Positions 5,899-36,169 of a stretch of 36,871 nucleotides of DNA are shown here, piece by piece. Source of the DNA: a virus; IMG/VR virus record IMGVR_UViG_3300030331_005937, positions 1 to 36,871 of that record. One strand, written 5' to 3'. The notes under the pieces were generated by a model that was not told the DNA's origin, searched no databases, and saw only the letters and a list, made by a program, of their open reading frames with translations. Every line of letters starts with the position of its first letter. The stretch's first letter is position 1. Both the position numbers and the translations under genes were made by a program.

Positions 5899-7341
5899 AT
5901 GGCTTACAAATTTCAATTAGACGATGCGATTTTAAGTGGATCGTTGGCTCAAGAAGGTAACATTGACATTATTGACAGTGGTGTACTTCAATTGGCTGGC
6001 AGCACTGCTATTGATGCATCCAAAAATGCTACTTTAGCAGCTGTCTCTGGTTCTGGTAACCTTAGTATCGCTGGTACTGTTAGTACTTCTAACGAGGGCT
6101 TCACTGTCGATGCTGATGGTGATCTTGTCGCTAAATCACTCACCGGGCTCGGATTGATTTCTGGCTCTAATAATCTTCATATTGCTGGCACTGTTAGCAC
6201 TTCTAACGCTGGCTTCACTGTTGATGCTGATGGTGATCTTGTCGCTAAATCACTTACCTCTAACTCTAATGTTTCAGGTTCTGGTAACTTTTTGATTTCT
6301 GGTAGCATTGCTGCTGGTGATTCTAGGTTTACTGTTAGCGATGCTGGTGCTGTGGCTACCACTAGCACTATTTCAGGAACGCTTCTTGCTTCATTTGGTC
6401 AAGTTCGTGCCGATGGTGGTTTAACTATGCAAGGTACCGATATTATTTCGGCTGCTAAAGCAATTGCAAACGTTACTAGTATTGACGCGTCCGGTGATCT
6501 TACCGTGGGTACAATTACAATGGATGAATTTACTGTTGCTGCAAACGGTAACACTGACATCGATGGTACTTTGAATGTTGAAGGTGTTCCTACCTTTCAA
6601 GCAGGTGCAGTCTTTTCTGGTGGTGTCACAACTGCTAACGCAATTGCTGGTGCAACCACAATCACTGGTTCTGGCTTGTTGACAATGAATGATCTTAGTA
6701 TCACTCAAACAGCATTGTTCTCAGGAGATGTTGCTCTTTCCGGTGCTTCAGAAGCTGTAGTTAGTGTTGCTGACGATAGCATTTATTTCTTGGATGCTAC
6801 ATCTGGTAAAGTTCGCAGAGATACTTTTGTAGATTATGCTGCTAAACTTGTAGAATCAGAGCCGGGTCTTGGCTCTGCAGGCGGTAAGATTCAATTTGAT
6901 CCAAACAGTCTTGCTTCTGGCTCTATTAATGTTGCTCAAGACTTCTTTGCTTTTGTTGATGCAGATGATACTGACATTCCTAAGAAAGATAGCATTGTTG
7001 ACCTTGTGGCAGCAATGGCTGGTGCTGGCCTTACCGCTACCGCCGGTGTTCTTTCAACTGATGGTGGTTCTGTTACAGTTGGTGCTGATGGTGGAACTCT
7101 TTCCGAGGGTTATAACTATTTCACCGGTACTGTAAATGCAACCGTCAAACTCCCAGCTGGGCCTAGTGTTGGTGATGTTGTTGTTGTTAAAGCAGGAAAT
7201 ACTGCTGCTGGACAGAACATTACTATTGAAGTACAAGGTTCGCACTTGATTGATGGTGACGCTACTAACATTCACCTTGAATCACCATTCGCAGCGGTTT
7301 CACTTGTGTACGTTGTTGCTAATGATTGGAGAATCGTATAA
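5899..7341 (+). CDS. Repeat-containing fibre-like protein, array member 3
   Basis: A 480-residue fibre-type protein. Residues about 50-163 consist of three tandem 38-residue units containing FTVDADGDLVAKSLT-like strands; the third is degenerate. Further FTV-x-x-x-G strands and T/S/G-rich beta repeats follow to about residue 280. The last 130 residues form a different region ending in the array's shared domain: VKLPAGPSVGD, ITIEVQGSHLIDG, LESPFAAVSLVY and NDWRIV. Such an architecture (repeat shaft plus small C-terminal domain) is typical of trimeric adhesins. The gene has a strong SD (GGAGGG) and is followed by a good intrinsic terminator. Receptor binding is inferred from architecture only. 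Confidence 0.7.
   Translation: MAYKFQLDDAILSGSLAQEGNIDIIDSGVLQLAGSTAIDASKNATLAAVSGSGNLSIAGTVSTSNEGFTVDADGDLVAKSLTGLGLISGSNNLHIAGTVSTSNAGFTVDADGDLVAKSLTSNSNVSGSGNFLISGSIAAGDSRFTVSDAGAVATTSTISGTLLASFGQVRADGGLTMQGTDIISAAKAIANVTSIDASGDLTVGTITMDEFTVAANGNTDIDGTLNVEGVPTFQAGAVFSGGVTTANAIAGATTITGSGLLTMNDLSITQTALFSGDVALSGASEAVVSVADDSIYFLDATSGKVRRDTFVDYAAKLVESEPGLGSAGGKIQFDPNSLASGSINVAQDFFAFVDADDTDIPKKDSIVDLVAAMAGAGLTATAGVLSTDGGSVTVGADGGTLSEGYNYFTGTVNATVKLPAGPSVGDVVVVKAGNTAAGQNITIEVQGSHLIDGDATNIHLESPFAAVSLVYVVANDWRIV
6047..6388 (+). repeat. Three tandem 114-bp coding repeats
   Basis: Units begin near 6047, 6161 and 6275, at exactly 114-bp (38-codon) spacing. The first two are highly similar at the DNA level, including the shared run GATGCTGATGGTGATCTTGT; the third has diverged. 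The repeat keeps the reading frame and adds shaft length to the fibre-like protein. Confidence 0.8.
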
Positions 7342-7375
7342 TCGTCTAACCAATTTTATTGGTTTATACACTACT

Positions 7376-7407
7376 GGATGCCTCTCAATGGGGGGCATCC
7401 TTTTTTT
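7376..7407 (+). terminator. Intrinsic terminator after fibre gene 3
   Basis: GGATGCCTCTC pairs with GGGGGGCATCC (11 bp including G-T pairs, AAT loop), followed by TTTTTTT at 7401-7407. It lies 34 bases after the stop at 7341 and should end transcripts from the upstream fibre genes. Confidence 0.9.
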
Positions 7408-7410
7408 ATG

Positions 7411-7418
7411 ACTACTTA
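7411..7418 (+). promoter_or_regulatory. ACTACTTA, variant of the late-type octamer
   Basis: ACTACTTAC differs by one base from the ACTATTTAC form of the recurrent octamer. It sits just after the terminator and 42 bases before the next gene, which is the expected place for a new promoter. Inference from position. Confidence 0.35.
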
Positions 7419-7452
7419 CTAACGAACGTTCAATTAAGGAATTAAATTTAAT

Positions 7453-8580
7453 ATGGCCTATAATGTTTTAAAGGGGCTCGTTGAGGGCTCTGTTGATCAA
7501 TATGGTGATCAAAGAATCGAAGGTGTAAAAGTATTCAAAAACACCATAAGCGCAAGTGTTTTTTATGATACGGATGCTGAAAGCCCATGCGCTACCATGA
7601 AAGATGTAGCAATTACTAAATTATCAGGTGGAAGAAAAAACGGTCTTATCAGCTACGATAGTAACGGAATAGCTAAGGTCAATCACAAGCTAGTATATAA
7701 AGATAACACTCTTGATGTTGAAAATGTTGTAGCTGCTACTTTTAACGGTTCCGCAGAGGGTTTATGCAATATACCAGTAACAGAATTTGCTGGTGAAATA
7801 AAAGCTAATTTTATTAAACATGGCCTCGGCCTACGTAATGTTGATGGAGAATTACAAGTATTTGCTGGTGATGGAATAAAAGTTGAAGACGGTAATGTCG
7901 ATATAAATTTAAATTCTAGAAGTGGCTTATCAATTAAAAGCAAACAACTTTATGTAGATCCGACGAAATCTCAGCCAATAACTCAAGGTGGACAAAATCT
8001 CAGCGACCAAGATTTGTTATTGGTTGCAGACATATCTAGAAATCAATTACAAAACACCACACTAAGAAACTTGTACGACAATTATATTGATGTAAAAATA
8101 CCAAAAGCAAGCGGCGGCAATGGACAATTACAAATTAAAAATGAAAGTGGTTTTGGTGCATCAGAAAAATTAACTTACGACATAGGTAAGAATAAATTGA
8201 ATGTTGATGGCTTAATTGTTGCTGATAGAATTACCACTGAAGGTAAATTTAAGTGCGAAGGCTCAGTATATAAAAGAATTATTAAAACAGATTCACCGAA
8301 TTATGTGGTTGCTGATGATGACTATACAATATTATGTGATACAGTAAAAAACAAGGTGACGGTTAAATTACCACCCGCATGTAATAATACTGGAAGAATA
8401 CTGATTATCAAAAAAGTTAATACCGATAAATACAGTATTAAATCTGAACCAATTAATATTGTAGCTAAAGATTCCATAATTGACAGAAAAGATGTTATGG
8501 TAATTAAAATGAATTATTCATCGAGAATGTTGCAGTCTGATGGAGAAAATTGGTGGTCGATTGGTTTATCGGGCACCTAA
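7453..8580 (+). CDS. Fibre-like virion protein, array member 4
   Basis: A 375-residue protein beginning MAYNVLKGLVEGSVDQYG, a start I associate with fibre or appendage proteins of marine phages. The central part is beta-rich with repeated GDG, VDG and DG turns (for example FAGDGIKVEDG near 137-148). The C-terminal domain follows the array pattern with VKLPPACNNTG, ILIIKK, a degenerate IIDRKD in place of IDG, and NWWSIGLSGT at the end. It is less Gly/Ser-rich and more Lys-rich than its neighbours, suggesting a different ancestry for the body. AAGGA at 7437-7441 supports the ATG at 7453. It follows a terminator, so it probably starts its own transcription unit. Confidence 0.65.
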   Translation: MAYNVLKGLVEGSVDQYGDQRIEGVKVFKNTISASVFYDTDAESPCATMKDVAITKLSGGRKNGLISYDSNGIAKVNHKLVYKDNTLDVENVVAATFNGSAEGLCNIPVTEFAGEIKANFIKHGLGLRNVDGELQVFAGDGIKVEDGNVDINLNSRSGLSIKSKQLYVDPTKSQPITQGGQNLSDQDLLLVADISRNQLQNTTLRNLYDNYIDVKIPKASGGNGQLQIKNESGFGASEKLTYDIGKNKLNVDGLIVADRITTEGKFKCEGSVYKRIIKTDSPNYVVADDDYTILCDTVKNKVTVKLPPACNNTGRILIIKKVNTDKYSIKSEPINIVAKDSIIDRKDVMVIKMNYSSRMLQSDGENWWSIGLSGT

Positions 8581-8592
8581 TATAATATAAGA

Positions 8593-8600
8593 ACTATTTA
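8593..8600 (+). promoter_or_regulatory. ACTATTTA octamer, candidate late promoter
   Basis: ACTATTTAT sits in the 39-base gap before the fibre gene at 8620 and 5 bases ahead of its SD (GGAGGGG, 8605-8611). It is one of six exact copies found before virion genes. Confidence 0.5.
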
Positions 8601-8619
8601 TGACGGAGGGGCAGTGTAA

Positions 8620-10524
8620 ATGGCCTATAATAAATCTAAGGGTAAACAAAAACATGGTGACGTAATCTATGATAAGGATACGGACACACAGATAGATTTC
8701 GAACAAAACGAAATTAAATTTAGAACGGGAGGATCTGTTAGAGGTTCTTTTACTGATGGAGGTTTATCTGTTACAGGCTCGCACATAATTGTTGGTGAAA
8801 TTTCTTCTTCACTTGGATATTCTGGCTCAACCGGATATTTTAACCGCGAAGTTATCGCGGGTGTAATCTCTGGTTCTCAGGTCGAAGCGCTAGGCGGATT
8901 CTTTGATATCATTGCGAGCCCCAATAACGGCGAAGCCAATGCAAGAACTCTCATTACAAATGGCGGAATACTTTCATCCTCCCAAACCACAGCATTGAAT
9001 GCTCTCGACATTGGTGAAGGAACATTTACCGTAAGTAAAGAAGGTGTTGTTGCCAGTTCTGGCAGTGTTAGTGTTGCCGGTGTGATTTCTGGATCATCAA
9101 CCGCTACCTTTGCTGGCATGCTTCAATCCTCGAACGAAAATTTCACAGTAAGCTCTGACGGCGTTATCAATGCTAAAAGATTAATCGCAACATCACACAT
9201 AGTTGGCGGTGGCAGTGTAACTGGCGCTTTTGGGTTTAGTGGCTCTGCAGGCCGATTTGATGAGCATGTTGTTTCTGGACACTTATCAGGAACTCTTATT
9301 CATGGTGGGACTGTCAACGTTGGTGAAGGAGTATTCACAGTAGCTTCAGACGGTGATGCCACCGCTAAAAGGCTGAACGCAACATCACATATAATTGGCG
9401 CCGCCACCATAACTGGCGCTTTTGGGTTTAGTGGCTCTGCAGCGCGCTTTGATGAGCACGTTGTTTCTGGGCACTTATCAGGAACTCTTATTCATGGTGG
9501 GACTGTTGACGTTGGTGAAGGAACATTCACCGTAAGCAAAGAAGGCGTTGTTGCCAGTTCTGGTAGTATTTCTGGCACTGTTCTATCTGGCTCAAGCACA
9601 GCTACATTACACAGCCTTAACGTTGGTCAGGGTATGTTCACGGTCAGCAACGAGGGCGCGACCGAATTAGCTAGCCTTGATATTGTTAACGGCGGAATTA
9701 CTAATGCCGGCTCAATTGCTGGCGCTACAAGTGTCGATGGTTCTGGTGATCTTACAATGGGCACAATCACAATGACCGGATTTACGGTAGATGCTGATGG
9801 AGATACGGCTGTAAAAACACTTTCCGCATCTGCAAATATATTTGGCTCTGGATTACATCTTACAAAAGACGCGCCAACTGTATTTTTTACAAATAGTGCA
9901 GGCACCGGATTGGCTTCAATTGGAGTTAATGCTTCTCAAAATATTTTAATCCAAAATGATACGACAAATAAACATATTGTATTTAAAGCAAATGATGGTG
10001 GAACAATAAGAGAGGGACTAAGATTAGATGGCGCAATTCCTGAAGTCGTTGTAAATCAGACTTCTGATTCATTAATGGATTTTCGTGTTGAATCTGATAA
10101 CAATACTCACATGCTATATGTGTCGGGGGGAGCCGATAAGGTGGGGATTAACACCAGTGCCCCTACTCAAACATTTTCAGTAATTGGCTCAACTATAGTT
10201 AGTGGCTCAACCCACTCAAGTTATACAGTTAGGGACACTGCTGGTGGATATGCAATTAGTGCTCTCGATAACGTTATAGTTTTTAATAATGCTAGTGGTC
10301 AAACTGCAACACTACCTCAAATCACAACAACTAATCACGGAATTCAGTATTACATCAAAAATATAGGTAGTGGCGTTGTTACAGTGACTGGCTCAACAGG
10401 TCATGAAAATTTTATCGATGGTCAGCAAAGTTTGTCACTTTCTCAAGGAGATAGCGCTAAGGTTATGGGAATCGCTCTTGTAACTGGCTTCGAATGGTTA
10501 GTACTGTCATATTATAACGTATAA
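8620..10524 (+). CDS. Large repeat-containing fibre-like protein, array member 5
   Basis: A 634-residue protein, the largest of the array. A short N-terminal region (MAYNKSKGKQKHGDVIYDKD) may attach it to the virion. Residues about 130-400 hold repeated FTV-(S/A/D)-x-(D/E)-G strands, including a near-exact 64-residue duplication (about 175-302) with GAFGFSGSA and SGHLSGTLIHGG. The strand motif matches that of array member 3, pointing to common origin. The C-terminal 110 residues carry the shared domain: ATLPQITTTNHG, YYIKN, VTVTGS, FIDGQQ and EWLVLSYYNV. A long trimeric fibre shaft with a small tip is the best structural guess; the receptor cannot be predicted. Confidence 0.7.
   Translation: MAYNKSKGKQKHGDVIYDKDTDTQIDFEQNEIKFRTGGSVRGSFTDGGLSVTGSHIIVGEISSSLGYSGSTGYFNREVIAGVISGSQVEALGGFFDIIASPNNGEANARTLITNGGILSSSQTTALNALDIGEGTFTVSKEGVVASSGSVSVAGVISGSSTATFAGMLQSSNENFTVSSDGVINAKRLIATSHIVGGGSVTGAFGFSGSAGRFDEHVVSGHLSGTLIHGGTVNVGEGVFTVASDGDATAKRLNATSHIIGAATITGAFGFSGSAARFDEHVVSGHLSGTLIHGGTVDVGEGTFTVSKEGVVASSGSISGTVLSGSSTATLHSLNVGQGMFTVSNEGATELASLDIVNGGITNAGSIAGATSVDGSGDLTMGTITMTGFTVDADGDTAVKTLSASANIFGSGLHLTKDAPTVFFTNSAGTGLASIGVNASQNILIQNDTTNKHIVFKANDGGTIREGLRLDGAIPEVVVNQTSDSLMDFRVESDNNTHMLYVSGGADKVGINTSAPTQTFSVIGSTIVSGSTHSSYTVRDTAGGYAISALDNVIVFNNASGQTATLPQITTTNHGIQYYIKNIGSGVVTVTGSTGHENFIDGQQSLSLSQGDSAKVMGIALVTGFEWLVLSYYNV
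9142..9525 (+). repeat. Near-exact tandem 192-bp coding duplication
   Basis: Two 192-bp (64-codon) units begin at about 9142 and 9334; the next FTV-type codon falls at 9526, again 192 bases on. Long stretches are almost identical, for example the CTGGCGCTTTTGGGTTTAGT blocks at 9221 and 9413. Flanking sequence at 9020-9070 resembles 9521-9570, so the region is a mosaic of repeated modules. Confidence 0.85.
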
Positions 10525-31818: not shown

Positions 31819-33006
31819 GTGTATTTTCAAACATTAGATGACAAAACAGAATGTGTGGGCGTATATACGTCTGGTAAGTTGAACTTTGATGATATTCCTG
31901 AAGGCCTTACAAGGACATGGAAGTTTACGGGTTCAATTTCCGACGATAGTATCGAATATGCATGGCTATATAGTGGTGGTAAGTCATTGGCCGAAGTTTG
32001 CCCAGAGCATCTTAGAGAAGAATTAGACACGGCTCAAAAAAAATTCCGTGCATTTATTAAGTCTTTTAAAATTGGTAAAGTAGATCTGAGAAATTTTTGT
32101 TTTTTCGATCTTGTTCCCCACGATTTCCTATTAGAATTTTGTGAGATTAGAAACAAAATTACAAGGCATGTATTTGAGAATTTTGAAAAACCCAAAAATT
32201 ATGATCACTTAGACGCTGCTTACAAGCTTGTCCATAAGATCAAGTTTCAAAATTTATTGATTAATAATGAAGATTGTAGGCACTTATTTGTTAATTCAAT
32301 AAATCGCAACAATGTTCAAAAGATTTTAGCTACATCACCACATGTTGATTATAATATTTTTGGAACAGCAACAGGTAGGTTCACAACCAGACCGGATACA
32401 TTTCCAATTTTAACCATGAAAAAAGAATATAGAAAACTTATTAAACCAACTAATGATTGGTTTTTGTCACTTGATTATAATGGTGCAGAAATTAGAACAC
32501 TTCTTGGTCTAAGTGGCCAAGAACAGCCATCCGGTGATATTCATGAATGGAATATGGATAATGTAATTAAGCGCTCAGATATTTACAGAGAAGAAGCTAA
32601 AACGCTATTCTTTTCGTGGCTTTATAATCCAGAGTCAAGAATTATATCAACAAATTATTATAATCGAGAAAAAGTACTTGACGATTGGTATGATGGCGAC
32701 TACATTAATACGCCATTTGATCGAAAAATCAAAATTGATGCACGTCGAGCATTTAACTACATCATACAAAGTACAACTTCGGATATTGTAATAGAACGCG
32801 CAATAGAAATCGATAAATTTCTATCAGATAAAAAAAGCTTTATATCTCACATTGTTCATGATGAGATTGTTATTGATTTGAGTAATGAGGATAGGGAATT
32901 GGTGCCTGAAATTAAAGAAATATTTGAAAAAACAAAACTTGGTAATTTTGTGTGCAATTTGGGTGCTGGTCAAAATTATTTAGAACTTCGAGGGCTTAAG
33001 CTTTGA
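31819..33006 (+). CDS. polA: Family A DNA polymerase, polymerase domain only
   Basis: A 395-residue protein with the palm and fingers motifs of DNA polymerase I. TATGRFTTRPD (183-193) matches the TGRLSS region. Motif A is LSLDYNGAEIR with catalytic Asp219. Motif B fits R257-x3-K261-x3-F265-x3-Y269 (REEAKTLFFSWLYN). The QSTTSD (317-322) equals the QGTAAD helix, and motif C is VHDEIVIDL with His347-Asp348-Glu349. There is no 3'-5' exonuclease domain: the N-terminal 160 residues lack its acidic motifs, so proofreading would need a separate gene. A comparable split enzyme is known in Rhodothermus phage RM378. It starts at a GTG with GAGG at 31810-31813. T4 itself uses a family B enzyme. Confidence 0.88.
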   Translation: MYFQTLDDKTECVGVYTSGKLNFDDIPEGLTRTWKFTGSISDDSIEYAWLYSGGKSLAEVCPEHLREELDTAQKKFRAFIKSFKIGKVDLRNFCFFDLVPHDFLLEFCEIRNKITRHVFENFEKPKNYDHLDAAYKLVHKIKFQNLLINNEDCRHLFVNSINRNNVQKILATSPHVDYNIFGTATGRFTTRPDTFPILTMKKEYRKLIKPTNDWFLSLDYNGAEIRTLLGLSGQEQPSGDIHEWNMDNVIKRSDIYREEAKTLFFSWLYNPESRIISTNYYNREKVLDDWYDGDYINTPFDRKIKIDARRAFNYIIQSTTSDIVIERAIEIDKFLSDKKSFISHIVHDEIVIDLSNEDRELVPEIKEIFEKTKLGNFVCNLGAGQNYLELRGLKL

Positions 33007-33863
33007 TATCATTAGTTGGAATAGGGACTGCTGGTTCAAATATCGTTGGTCAGTTTGCTGGCAATAAGGAATACAAACTTTATCAATTGTCTAATCAGTT
33101 TTCAAAGACGTCTGGTGGCCAATATAAGCTTAAAAAATATGATGAAATAGAGGATTACGAAAAAAACATTCCTAAGCTGTCAAAGTTCTTCAAAGGAATT
33201 AGCAACAATGTGCAGGCATTTGTTTGTGGCTCTAGCAAAAGCGCAGTGATGACACTGGGGATTTTAGAACAAATTAAACACACTAAAATAGATTTATTCT
33301 ATATTAGACCAGATACTGAATTATTAATAGGTGATTCTCGACTTCAGGAAAGAGCAGTTTTTGGTATCTTACAGGAATATGCACGTTCGGGTTTGATTAA
33401 CTCAATAACAATTTTCAGTAATCCGATCTTAGAAGAAACAATAGGAAATGTACCAATTAAAAAATACTTTGAAACTATTAACCAGACTATTTATTATAGT
33501 GTGCATTACAAGAATTTGTTTGACCACACACAGCCTATTATTGGCAACCTAAGTAAGCCTTCTGACGTACAAAGAATACGCTCTCTAGGTAGACTTGACA
33601 CCAACAAAGTTGAAGAAAAATGGTTTTTTGATCTTGACATGAGCCGGGACGTGTGTTATTATTTCTGCATATCTCAGGAAAAACTAGAAAAGGATGGCGG
33701 ATTACATCAAAGAATTATCGAAAAGTTAAAACAAAAACCGAAAAATGCTTTTAAAAATATAACGTATGCGATTTACGAATCTCCATACGATGAAGATTTT
33801 GGGTTCTGCGTTGCCCACACTAACGCAATTCAAAAAACTCTTGACAAGGTAGATCAAGAGTGA
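33003..33863 (+). CDS. Divergent FtsZ/tubulin-superfamily protein
   Basis: A 286-residue protein whose order of motifs follows FtsZ. The start MISLVGIGTAGSNIV (1-15) fits the first strand and T1 loop (GxGxxGxN). The segment VQAFVCGSSKSAVMTLGILE (70-89) lies where FtsZ has its GGGTGTG T4 loop, but that signature is degraded. RLQERAVFGILQEYARSG (113-130) matches the R-x-x-x-A-x-x-G-I helix, ITIFSNPIL (135-143) the IPN loop, and the FETINQTIYYS helix precedes a T7-like SDVQR (187-191) with Asp188. The C-terminal part resembles the activation domain. It starts at a TTG overlapping the polymerase stop by four bases. GTP binding and polymerisation are uncertain. Confidence 0.68.
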   Translation: MISLVGIGTAGSNIVGQFAGNKEYKLYQLSNQFSKTSGGQYKLKKYDEIEDYEKNIPKLSKFFKGISNNVQAFVCGSSKSAVMTLGILEQIKHTKIDLFYIRPDTELLIGDSRLQERAVFGILQEYARSGLINSITIFSNPILEETIGNVPIKKYFETINQTIYYSVHYKNLFDHTQPIIGNLSKPSDVQRIRSLGRLDTNKVEEKWFFDLDMSRDVCYYFCISQEKLEKDGGLHQRIIEKLKQKPKNAFKNITYAIYESPYDEDFGFCVAHTNAIQKTLDKVDQE

Positions 33864-33869
33864 TACATT
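33841..33869 (+). promoter_or_regulatory. Sigma70-type promoter upstream of gene 32
   Basis: TTGACA (33841-33846), a 17-base spacer ending in an extended TGA, and TACATT (33864-33869). It lies at the 3' end of the tubulin-like gene. Confidence 0.65.
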
Positions 33870-33886
33870 AGATGTCAAGGAACGCT

Positions 33887-33895
33887 TGATATACT
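33887..33895 (+). promoter_or_regulatory. Extended -10 element upstream of gene 32
   Basis: TGATATACT is an extended -10 sequence (TG-n-TATACT) 26 bases before the ATG at 33921; no good -35 lies at 17 bases. It may be a second, weaker start for gene 32 or an alternative to the promoter just upstream. Confidence 0.4.
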
Positions 33896-33920
33896 TTATT
33901 AACAAAAAAAGGAGAAAAAT

Positions 33921-34691
33921 ATGTCTATTAATATGGAACTAATGAGAAAGAAGCTCGCCGCACTTCGTGGCGATGGAAATGGAAATGATGGCCCGTCTAT
34001 CTGGTTTAAGCCAGATGAAGGTGACCAAGATATTCGGATCGTACCAACGAGCGATGGCGATCCGTTGAAAGAGTTTTTCTTCCACTATAACGTGGGAGAT
34101 CATAAGGGTGGTATCATGTGCTCAAAGCGTAATTTTAATGAGCGCTGTCCAATTTGTGACTTCGCTTCAACGCTTTGGCGCGAGGGTGTTGACAACAATG
34201 ATGAGGAAAGCAAAAAGCTGGCAAAGTCACTTTTTGTGCGTACCCGATACTTCTCGCCAGTCGTATTGCGCGGCAATGAAGCTGATGGAATTAAGGTATA
34301 TGGCTATGGCAAGCAAGCTTACGAGCTTCTGCTTGGCTATATTCTTGACCCTGAGTATGGCGACATTACCGACATTAAGGAAGGTACAGATATCACGCTA
34401 ACGTATACTAAGCCAAATCGTCCCGGGGCATACCCGCAGACTAATTTAAAAATGCGCCGAAATACATCGCCACTCTTGGAAGACCAAGAGTCTATCCCCG
34501 GAATGTTAGATAACATGCCTGACTTTGATAGCTTGTTTGAACGCCTCACCCCAGAGCAAATTGACGCTATCTTAGACGAACAAATGGCTGGTTCGGCTTC
34601 TGCAGAAGAGCGCTCATCTGAGAGCACTCATTATGCTAATGGTGCCAGCGATGTTGACAAGGCATTTAATGACTTGATGACTGGAACTTAG
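33921..34691 (+). CDS. 32: Single-stranded DNA-binding protein, gp32-like
   Basis: A 256-residue ssDNA-binding protein of the T4 gp32 type, which coats ssDNA in replication and recombination. The zinc site is visible: His55/His61, Cys67, Cys76 and Cys79 (MCSKRNFNERCPIC) match gp32's His-x-Cys-x-Cys-xx-Cys arrangement, with one fewer residue between the first two Cys than I recall for T4. The N-terminal basic motif (LMRKKLAALRG) resembles gp32's cooperativity LAST-like region. FLHY-like and RTRYFSPVV strings follow the OB fold. It is shorter than T4 gp32 (301), with a less acidic C-terminus. SD AAAGGAG precedes the ATG; it uses CGT/CGC codons, as strongly expressed genes here do. Confidence 0.93.
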   Translation: MSINMELMRKKLAALRGDGNGNDGPSIWFKPDEGDQDIRIVPTSDGDPLKEFFFHYNVGDHKGGIMCSKRNFNERCPICDFASTLWREGVDNNDEESKKLAKSLFVRTRYFSPVVLRGNEADGIKVYGYGKQAYELLLGYILDPEYGDITDIKEGTDITLTYTKPNRPGAYPQTNLKMRRNTSPLLEDQESIPGMLDNMPDFDSLFERLTPEQIDAILDEQMAGSASAEERSSESTHYANGASDVDKAFNDLMTGT

Positions 34692-35116: not shown

Positions 35117-36169
35117 ATGACATATAAATTTACCCTTCCTGCACCTAGGCCTACAGCTGATTACTGGGTTATTGGAGAGGCTTCTGGCACGGGTGACATT
35201 GGCTATGCAGCCAACACCAATAGAGCCTCGTGGACATTTTATGATAAAAGCCCCGGTAATTCAGCATCACTCGACGGTGCTTATGGAAAAGATGGCAATG
35301 GGAATGGTATATATGTTTTTTCGCAATCTTCTAGTGAAACACCGGGCGAGCTTGCAATTAGTTCTGATGATATCACCGATGGTGTTCAGTGGACTGGGCT
35401 TAATTTGGTGGGAGGTGGCCAACAATTTTGTGATGCCGTAACGTGGTCTAATGATTCAACAAACTCTACATCGGGTGTATGGATGGTTGGACGACGAAAC
35501 GGGCATGTTTATCGCAGTACCGATGGCGCTTCATCTTTTAGTGAAATTACTTTGCCAAATGACAGTGGTGATCCAATTTTATCAATAGCAGGTAATGGCA
35601 GTGGAAAATTTGTGACAGGACAAGAAGGCAGATTATTAATTAGCACTGATGATGGCGCATCATTCTCTTCTTCAACACCTTTCACCGCCGAGCAAATAAA
35701 TGGCGTAGCTTATACTGGTGCAACATGGGTTGTGACATATACTAAAACCGGAGAGACTAATTTGTTTGCCAGATCAGCGGCCGACTCCGATCTCACCACT
35801 TGGAGTGCCGAGCGTAATTTAGGCATTCAAAAGCCTGCAAATAAGGATAACGTTAATACGCCCGATAAAAGAGCCAGCATAGCTGCTGCAAATGGTAGGG
35901 TGGTTATTGTCTCTAACAAAATTGAAGCAATTGCTACACTTGATATTAGCGGCACAACAACAAGTAATTTATTAAACCCAACATTCAGCCCCGGCATTGA
36001 AATACGTGATATTGCCACAGATGGTTTCACATGGATGATTGTGGGAGAAGGCGGGGATATCTACGAGAGTTCTAATGGTGGCGAAACCTTTGCGAGAACC
36101 GTTGATAACGTCCGAGGTACAGGTCGCGATCTGCAAGTTGTTGTCGCATCAAAACACTTACCTTTATAA
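35117..36169 (+). CDS. Asp-box (BNR-like) beta-propeller protein
   Basis: A 350-residue protein with at least three Asp-box motifs (S-x-D/N-x-G-x-x-F): YRSTDGASSFSE (about 131-142), ISTDDGASFSS (174-184) and YESSNGGETFAR (about 322-333). These mark the blades of propellers such as bacterial sialidases and Ycf48-type proteins. There is no signal peptide, and no complete sialidase catalytic set can be identified. The start MTYKFTLPAPRPTADYWVIG may be an attachment segment. The gene lies alone between gp32 and uvsX with its own promoter and a preceding terminator, which is odd for a virion protein. It may bind sugars or serve as a virion component. Confidence 0.68.
   Translation: MTYKFTLPAPRPTADYWVIGEASGTGDIGYAANTNRASWTFYDKSPGNSASLDGAYGKDGNGNGIYVFSQSSSETPGELAISSDDITDGVQWTGLNLVGGGQQFCDAVTWSNDSTNSTSGVWMVGRRNGHVYRSTDGASSFSEITLPNDSGDPILSIAGNGSGKFVTGQEGRLLISTDDGASFSSSTPFTAEQINGVAYTGATWVVTYTKTGETNLFARSAADSDLTTWSAERNLGIQKPANKDNVNTPDKRASIAAANGRVVIVSNKIEAIATLDISGTTTSNLLNPTFSPGIEIRDIATDGFTWMIVGEGGDIYESSNGGETFARTVDNVRGTGRDLQVVVASKHLPL

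Follow-up and report, generated by a model that had tools for sequence, protein, structure and literature searches.

A gene that we call B encodes a divergent protein with a predicted tubulin/FtsZ fold, and in uncultured phages it lies between the genes for a family A DNA polymerase (PolA) and a single-strand-DNA-binding protein (SSB). We studied B in a viral contig that is 36,871 bases long (the window). As judged from predicted structures, B is a widespread and divergent phage branch of the tubulin fold. IMG/VR contains many copies of it, and its carriers are a common, uncultured group of ocean bacteriophages. B would be a further kind of phage tubulin, in an abundant marine lineage, that Pfam and PHROGs do not detect, and its fixed place between DNA polymerase and SSB would link a tubulin fold directly to the replication machine. 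Some B-bearing genomes also encode a canonical tubulin (A), which raises the question of whether these phages have a two-component cytoskeleton or have recruited a tubulin fold as a subunit of the polymerase. To our knowledge, either would be new.

The B ORF begins with TTG, and its start overlaps the stop of the PolA ORF by four bases (Table 1). The ORF, its length, and the overlap are as given in the original prediction, which was made from the sequence without database searches. The motifs that it quoted are also present: GIGTAGSNIV (amino acids 6–15), VCGSSKSAV (amino acids 74–82), RLQERAVFGIL, IFSN, and SDVQR. PolA is unusually short for family A, and the corresponding frames in six large relatives have 399–435 amino acids; Pfam and PHROG searches recognized no separate proofreading domain in the window's PolA. 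The other genes in the window encode the head and tail of a contractile-tail phage, including a head maturation protease, the major head protein, the tail sheath, the tail tube, a baseplate hub, and a tape measure. (We also noticed several long, repetitive, tail-fibre-like proteins at 5899–10524, flanked by the genes for the head protease and the major head protein. Just past the replication genes, the ORF at 35117–36169 has weak matches, under the cut-off, to BNR-repeat or YCF48-like Pfam families.)

Table 1. Features of the PolA-B-SSB region of the window. Amino acid (aa) positions are those of B, and conservation was counted over 115 distinct B proteins.
Feature	Coordinates	Strand	Evidence
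Compact family A DNA polymerase (PolA), 395 aa	31819..33006	+	PF00476 E 1e-14; phrog_17 E 9.2e-22
B, divergent protein of predicted tubulin/FtsZ fold, 286 aa	33003..33863	+	ORF, predicted fold, conservation
T1-like loop GIGTAGSNI, aa 6–14	33018..33044	+	G6 and G8 each in 110/115; named by alignment to FtsZ
T4-like position VCGSSKSAV, aa 74–82, degraded	33222..33248	+	GGGTG[ST]G in 0/115
T6-like loop, aa 137–144, with N140	33411..33434	+	N140 in 114/115; aligns with FtsZ N165
Long helix taken as H7, aa 152–174, with N160	33456..33524	+	Helix in model; N160 in 115/115; aligns with FtsZ N186, beside D187
T7-like region, aa 181–192 (GNLSKPSDVQRI), with acidic D188	33543..33578	+	D/E at 188 in 101/115
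gp32-like single-strand-DNA-binding protein (SSB), 256 aa	33921..34691	+	PF08804 E 4.5e-12; phrog_1192 E 1.9e-24

The original prediction called B a divergent FtsZ/tubulin-like protein, and this is borne out by two predicted structures from different clades and by fold comparison with the PDB. The AlphaFold2 model of the window's B, which was built with 25 relatives, has a pLDDT of 81.3 and a pTM of 0.79; the remaining four models reached only pLDDT 59–64. As a check, we modeled the B of a locus from the other clade (L054, with 34 relatives). Its best model has a pLDDT of 93.4 and a pTM of 0.91, and all five models are at 91.9–93.4, although the window and L054 models are not fully independent because their alignments share relatives. 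Foldseek ranked FtsZ at the top for both (E = 2.3e-11 for the window's B and 3.8e-14 for L054). With VIA-align, the window's B has Z-scores of 21.9 to CetZ (rmsd 3.5, 265 residues aligned), 20.7 to TubZ, 20.5 to FtsZ, and 19.8 to tubulin, and L054 has 24.1 to CetZ (rmsd 3.0, 262 residues aligned), 23.0 to TubZ, 22.4 to FtsZ, and 21.9 to tubulin; because Z-scores within 1 of each other are ties, these values do not assign B to the CetZ, TubZ, FtsZ, or tubulin family. The L054 model aligns with chains from the tubulin superfamily over 262–280 residues that span both domains. The best match in a library of viral structures comes from an uncultured phage and is annotated as FtsZ (E = 5.0e-11, TMq 0.73).

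The models contain an N-terminal nucleotide-type domain, a long H7, and a C-terminal activation-type domain, and they support a two-domain tubulin/FtsZ fold across nearly the whole chain. They do not contain the H11 of PhuZ-type proteins: the last element is a strand (266–273 in the window's B, 264–271 in L054), with no helix beyond it. We considered a dehydrogenase or another Rossmann protein and rejected it, as both domains fit the tubulin fold.

B is not recognizable as a tubulin by its sequence. The original prediction had suggested a fold search and a tubulin-family profile search as checks; the first put FtsZ at the top (by Foldseek), whereas the second gave no match at the cut-off to PF00091 or to any other tubulin model for any B that we tested. 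PF00091 matched three of the 35 A6 members under the cut-off (best E = 0.048), and FtsZ_C is absent from the Pfam matches listed for B (for the A6 members, 25 of 35 families were listed). With hhalign, B against a profile of 11 FtsZ proteins gave E = 0.035 for the second clade, 0.098 for the window's clade, and 0.044 for both together, none of which is significant. Against a profile of A-type proteins, the corresponding values were 0.012, 0.045, and 0.18, also not significant. (Reversed and unrelated controls gave E = 0.11–0.68.) The longer alignments of B to FtsZ are weak but collinear across T1, T4, T6, and H7. In a search of PDB sequence profiles, the T6-H7 stretch of FtsZ appeared at E = 0.77 and 1.6, and unrelated chains ranked higher. 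We therefore rejected the idea that B is an FtsZ that can be detected from its sequence, and because the sequence profiles are not significant, it is the fold that carries the claim of a tubulin. Since B lacks the GTPase signature and no family profile matched it at the cut-off, we classify it by fold only and not as FtsZ, PhuZ, or TubZ.

Could the fold match be misleading, and B be some other Rossmann-type protein? Besides the low pLDDT of four of the window's five models and the insignificant hhalign results, individual B proteins have weak matches to Rossmann-type Pfam families, such as F420_oxidored (E = 0.0018, with 19.3 bits against a cut-off of 21.6) and GARS_N (E = 0.0009, the best among the Pfam matches listed for single members). 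However, all five L054 models agree, their Z-scores of 21–24 span both domains, and the similarity to FtsZ is collinear, so we consider this explanation very improbable. The original prediction named two findings that would refute it: a model lacking the tubulin Rossmann fold, and a clear profile match elsewhere, for instance to a dehydrogenase. Neither turned up, and the Rossmann-type matches are below the curated cut-offs where these are shown.

The original prediction also described the T4 loop as degraded, and its signature is indeed absent from all 115 distinct B proteins (Table 1). In the window's clade, the T4 position is mostly CGSS or similar, and part of the second clade has forms that resemble GGSGxxSGAS. 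We saw no counterpart of the T3 motif of FtsZ by eye in the B alignment. In the T7 motif NxDxx[D/E], the first acid is not seen at positions 184–185 in most of the 115 proteins; by spacing only, position 188 would correspond to the catalytic acid of FtsZ. We had considered a total loss of the T7 acids and dropped it, given the D or E at 188. Besides N160, the residues H168, N171, and F173 are invariant in all 115 proteins. FtsZ N165 and N186 (in E. coli numbering), which align with N140 and N160 of B, are presumably at or beside the guanine-contacting positions of FtsZ and tubulin. To judge from the alignment, the phosphate side of B's pocket is altered, and loss of GTP binding is possible. 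Since the T1 glycines, the T6 and H7 asparagines, and a mostly acidic residue in the T7 region are kept, we are cautious about calling B simply nucleotide-dead.

The residues that remain could mean that B is a working tubulin of the PhuZ/TubZ kind, which would bind GTP by way of its altered T4, polymerize, and position phage DNA. The models have the complete fold, C-terminal domain included; the T1 glycines, N140 and N160, and usually the acid at 188 are kept; and part of the second clade retains a glycine-rich T4. Yet GGGTG[ST]G is found in none of the 115 proteins, 14 of them lack the acid at 188, and T3 has no visible counterpart. We think that a self-sufficient tubulin is unlikely. The original prediction also mentioned an inactive mimic, which would poison or redirect the host's FtsZ. 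An FtsZ-like fold with a degraded pocket would suit this role, but B sits in a replication cassette, overlapping PolA, and not among early host-takeover genes, which makes a mimic quite improbable.

The window's B protein has no match in Pfam or PHROGs at E up to 1. With this protein alone, a search of IMG/VR found 50 related loci; with alignment A1, at least 599 stretches matched, at least 593 of which encode a relative of B. A second and more varied clade was reached through distant members. Among cultured phages, tblastn of 50,697 phage records with two B queries found no relative, and a third query had only two matches, both at E = 9 and to a stretch of 47 residues, in a single Pseudomonas phage that is represented by two records. 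Neither B nor A was found in a collection of species genomes by scans for short patterns, which distant members may escape. The dN/dS of B is 0.028 against L001 (98% identical) and 0.05–0.08 in the 12 other pairs for which it could be computed (of 28 pairs in total). B is a real, constrained gene of uncultured viruses, under purifying selection.

The gene order around B is strongly conserved. We examined 145 loci (L001–L145); among these, L051 is the stretch from the window itself, and L052 duplicates L050. PolA is directly upstream of B in 123 loci and lies past a longer gap in 13; in the other 9, the contig ends. SSB is downstream of B in 139 loci, and the contig ends in the other 6. Because each locus was fetched for holding B, these counts are silent on how often PolA-SSB cassettes lack B. 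The PolA-B-SSB order is common to both clades. The original prediction had proposed a coupling of B to the polymerase gene, and the pair is indeed conserved and mostly overlapping: the start of B overlaps the stop of PolA by four bases in 111 of the 135 loci counted. Such an overlap of stop and start is a usual sign of translational coupling. (About 0.3–1.4 kb separates PolA from B in 13 second-clade loci: L123–L128, L130–L133, L135, L137, and L138.) In L050, the cassette continues with ORFs that, as named from their translations, are RecA/UvsX-like, deaminase-like, 5' nuclease-like, and DnaB-like.

The cultured phages with the most similar capsid protein are immuto and Mel-JY01, and their cassettes of PolA, SSB, recombinase, nuclease, and helicase lack B. 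(The PolA of Mel-JY01 is an ORF annotated as hypothetical, which we assigned by reading.) A sensitive hmmsearch for a hidden B in 10.0 and 14.6 kb of these phages gave a best E of 0.29; the whole records were searched for B by tblastn only. Because these PolA-SSB cassettes lack B, a PolA of this type is able to function in its absence. We also noticed a small gene directly past the PolA ORF in Mel-JY01 (L151:4867-5256, 129 amino acids) and in immuto (L152:1346-1801, 151 amino acids). The two small genes share a stretch around LVHRKKESNT and occupy the interval that holds B in the marine phages.

The cassette raises the possibility that B is an accessory subunit of PolA, such as a processivity factor or a scaffold, in which the tubulin fold was reused and filaments were lost. 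This is a close rival of the adaptor role that we propose below, and we regard it as somewhat doubtful. It would explain the overlapping start, the shared gene order of the two clades, the missing signature of a polymerizing GTPase, and the persistence of B in phages where A was not found. In all six large records, PolA is the sole polymerase of family A or B above the cut-off. The T4-type clamp family PF02916 was found in none of these six records, although the control for this search was weak (one of 14 control genomes gave a match, below the cut-off). On the other hand, immuto and Mel-JY01 have the cassette without B. Furthermore, we know of no tubulin-fold polymerase subunit, which we count against this explanation, and of no replisome-subunit function that has been assigned to the tubulin superfamily.

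Relatives of the window's phage encode a second tubulin-like protein, A, directly past an SbcC-like gene. PF00091 is above its cut-off of 33 bits in three of the six large B-bearing records (33.5–43.6 bits). Scored as proteins, the A of L229 has 39.6 bits and that of L156 has 32.4, just under the cut-off. By reading, A has the motifs VGVGGGGNK, AGGGGGTGSS, and SFDSKDLE, which are intact T1, T4, and T7-like motifs. The profile of A matches the profile of FtsZ with a probability of 97.4 and E = 1.3e-11. With a PF00091 match above the cut-off and an intact T4, A is by its sequence a canonical phage tubulin. A scan of IMG/VR found 119 A-type stretches, and the best 80 of the 119 are 85–100% identical. 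Among phage records, only gp138 of Bacillus phage G, annotated as putative FtsZ-like, is a match (E = 3e-6).

B is present in six of the 16 A-bearing records that we searched; the other 10 could not show B because the sequence that follows A is too short in each of them (34.3 kb or less). In all nine contigs that are long enough (these six plus G001–G003), A and B occur together and on the same strand, with A about 38–43 kb upstream of B. (In one of these, the distance runs across the ends of the record, and for G002 the Pfam match, and not the end of the gene, served as the reference point.) Both main branches of the window's clade contain B sequences from records that also bear A. Since these relatives bracket the window's B in the tree, the window's own phage probably has A as well, past the left end of the window, which is too short to show it.

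In the second clade, we found no A in G006 or G007, either with PF00091 or with the FtsZ profile, which did detect matches in three other records. (G006 and G007 are 186 and 204 kb and are classed as 'linear', so they may be incomplete.) We also considered a degraded A at the syntenic site, and reading the two records revealed none; other genes follow the SbcC-like gene. Nor was A found in 15 B-bearing records, in a scan without its own positive control; seven of the 15 are from the window's clade, and their sequence upstream of B, 37.6 kb at the longest, does not reach the position that A has in their kin. Because A was not found in G006 and G007, B does not need A everywhere. Across nine records (36 pairs), the median identity is 88.7% for A and 55.0% for B, and these very different rates give no sign of tight co-evolution.

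We propose that B serves as an adaptor or a co-filament through which the replication machinery is tethered to a filament of the tubulin type; we consider this possible, if not yet probable. B would belong to the phage's replication machinery, be produced together with PolA, and act at the replication centre. As a tubulin-family adaptor, it would dock on the end or the side of a tubulin-type filament and tether the PolA/SSB complex, and hence the replicating phage DNA, to that filament. For phages of the window's clade, the A-type tubulin encoded upstream would form this filament; in the second clade, B would assemble alone or with another partner. We infer the contact of B with A, its contact with PolA, the formation of filaments, and the positioning of DNA. 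Our proposal draws on the predicted fold, the conserved and overlapping cassette, purifying selection, the altered T4, and the presence of A in the contigs where it could be tested. Several findings argue against it: A and B are about 40 kb apart and do not share an operon, A was not found in the second clade, the two genes evolve at very different rates, and the sequence similarity of B to FtsZ or to A is insignificant.

Because relatives carry B as well as the ordinary tubulin A, they may surround their DNA during replication with a cytoskeleton of two parts. In such a two-tubulin system, the fast-diverging and possibly GTPase-dead B would recruit or cap filaments of the slowly evolving A, and form a minimal spindle or a scaffold for the replication centre, outside of the nucleus-forming jumbo phages. 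We think that this more elaborate scheme is rather doubtful.

Tubulins of phages have been described in jumbo phages that form a nucleus and in plasmid-like phages. The placement or segregation of phage DNA is reported as the role of PhuZ and TubZ (PMC7950403, PMC3678025, PMC4244570). Like PhuZ and the TubZ of phiKZ, B is phage-encoded and has the tubulin/FtsZ fold (as predicted); a role with DNA has been shown for PhuZ and is suggested by context for B. Unlike PhuZ, B lacks the T4 signature, has no helix past the last strand in the models, and is set between PolA and SSB. PhuZ-type proteins are described as binding and hydrolyzing GTP and as having the C-terminal helix H11 and an acidic knuckle (PMC3678025). 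The marine jumbo phages with tubulins that are reported in PMC9123017 belong to the PhiKZ type and have a polymerase of family B. TubZ, from plasmids and phage C-st, resembles the B models in its fold (Z = 20.7 and 23.0) and differs in that B lacks the GTPase signature; TubZ acts with TubR and a centromere site, according to passages of PMC7950403. CetZ and FtsZ likewise share the fold with B, with tied Z-scores and, for FtsZ, the weak collinear profile alignment, but B has no PF00091 match at the cut-off and is in a replication cassette.

FtsZl1 and FtsZl2 have diverged strongly from the rest of the superfamily and are usually found beside a conventional FtsZ, as PMC2875224 reports. This coexistence is much like that of B with A. 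However, FtsZl1 and FtsZl2 are cellular, have other gene contexts (vWA proteins and membranes for FtsZl1), and retain a recognizable PF00091-like core. Phages are not mentioned in the passages of PMC9871819 on divergent cellular branches. In a passage of PMC7824862, two representatives of the family are reported in jumbo phages, which we read as two families and not as two genes per genome. AlpC and AlpA, from prophage CGP3 of Corynebacterium, offer a precedent for an adaptor: the AlpC filament is reported to be tied to phage DNA by the AlpA adaptor and to be needed for efficient replication (PMC4446434). This phage filament with its adaptor resembles the proposed role of B, but AlpC is actin-like, and AlpA is not homologous to the filament protein. 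In the portions of the open-access literature that we covered, we found neither a phage DNA polymerase gene that is paired with a gene of the tubulin fold nor a phage in which a divergent tubulin accompanies a canonical one.

We also noticed a hairpin at 33872–33892, in the interval between B and SSB, with a stem at 33875–33879 and 33885–33889 and a loop at 33880–33884. Rfam has no match at 33700–34100. The loop is GAACG or GAAAG, and in the leaders of 72 of 140 relatives such a loop is closed by a perfect stem of 5 bp or more. (In base-shuffled leaders, such hairpins numbered 0.2 on average and at most 2.) Ten stem sequences vary on both sides, including TCAAG/CTTGA, GTAAG/CTTAC, CTGAG/CTCAG, and CTGTG/CACAG. 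The gp32 of phage T4 binds its own leader, and the hairpin may likewise help to regulate the SSB gene.
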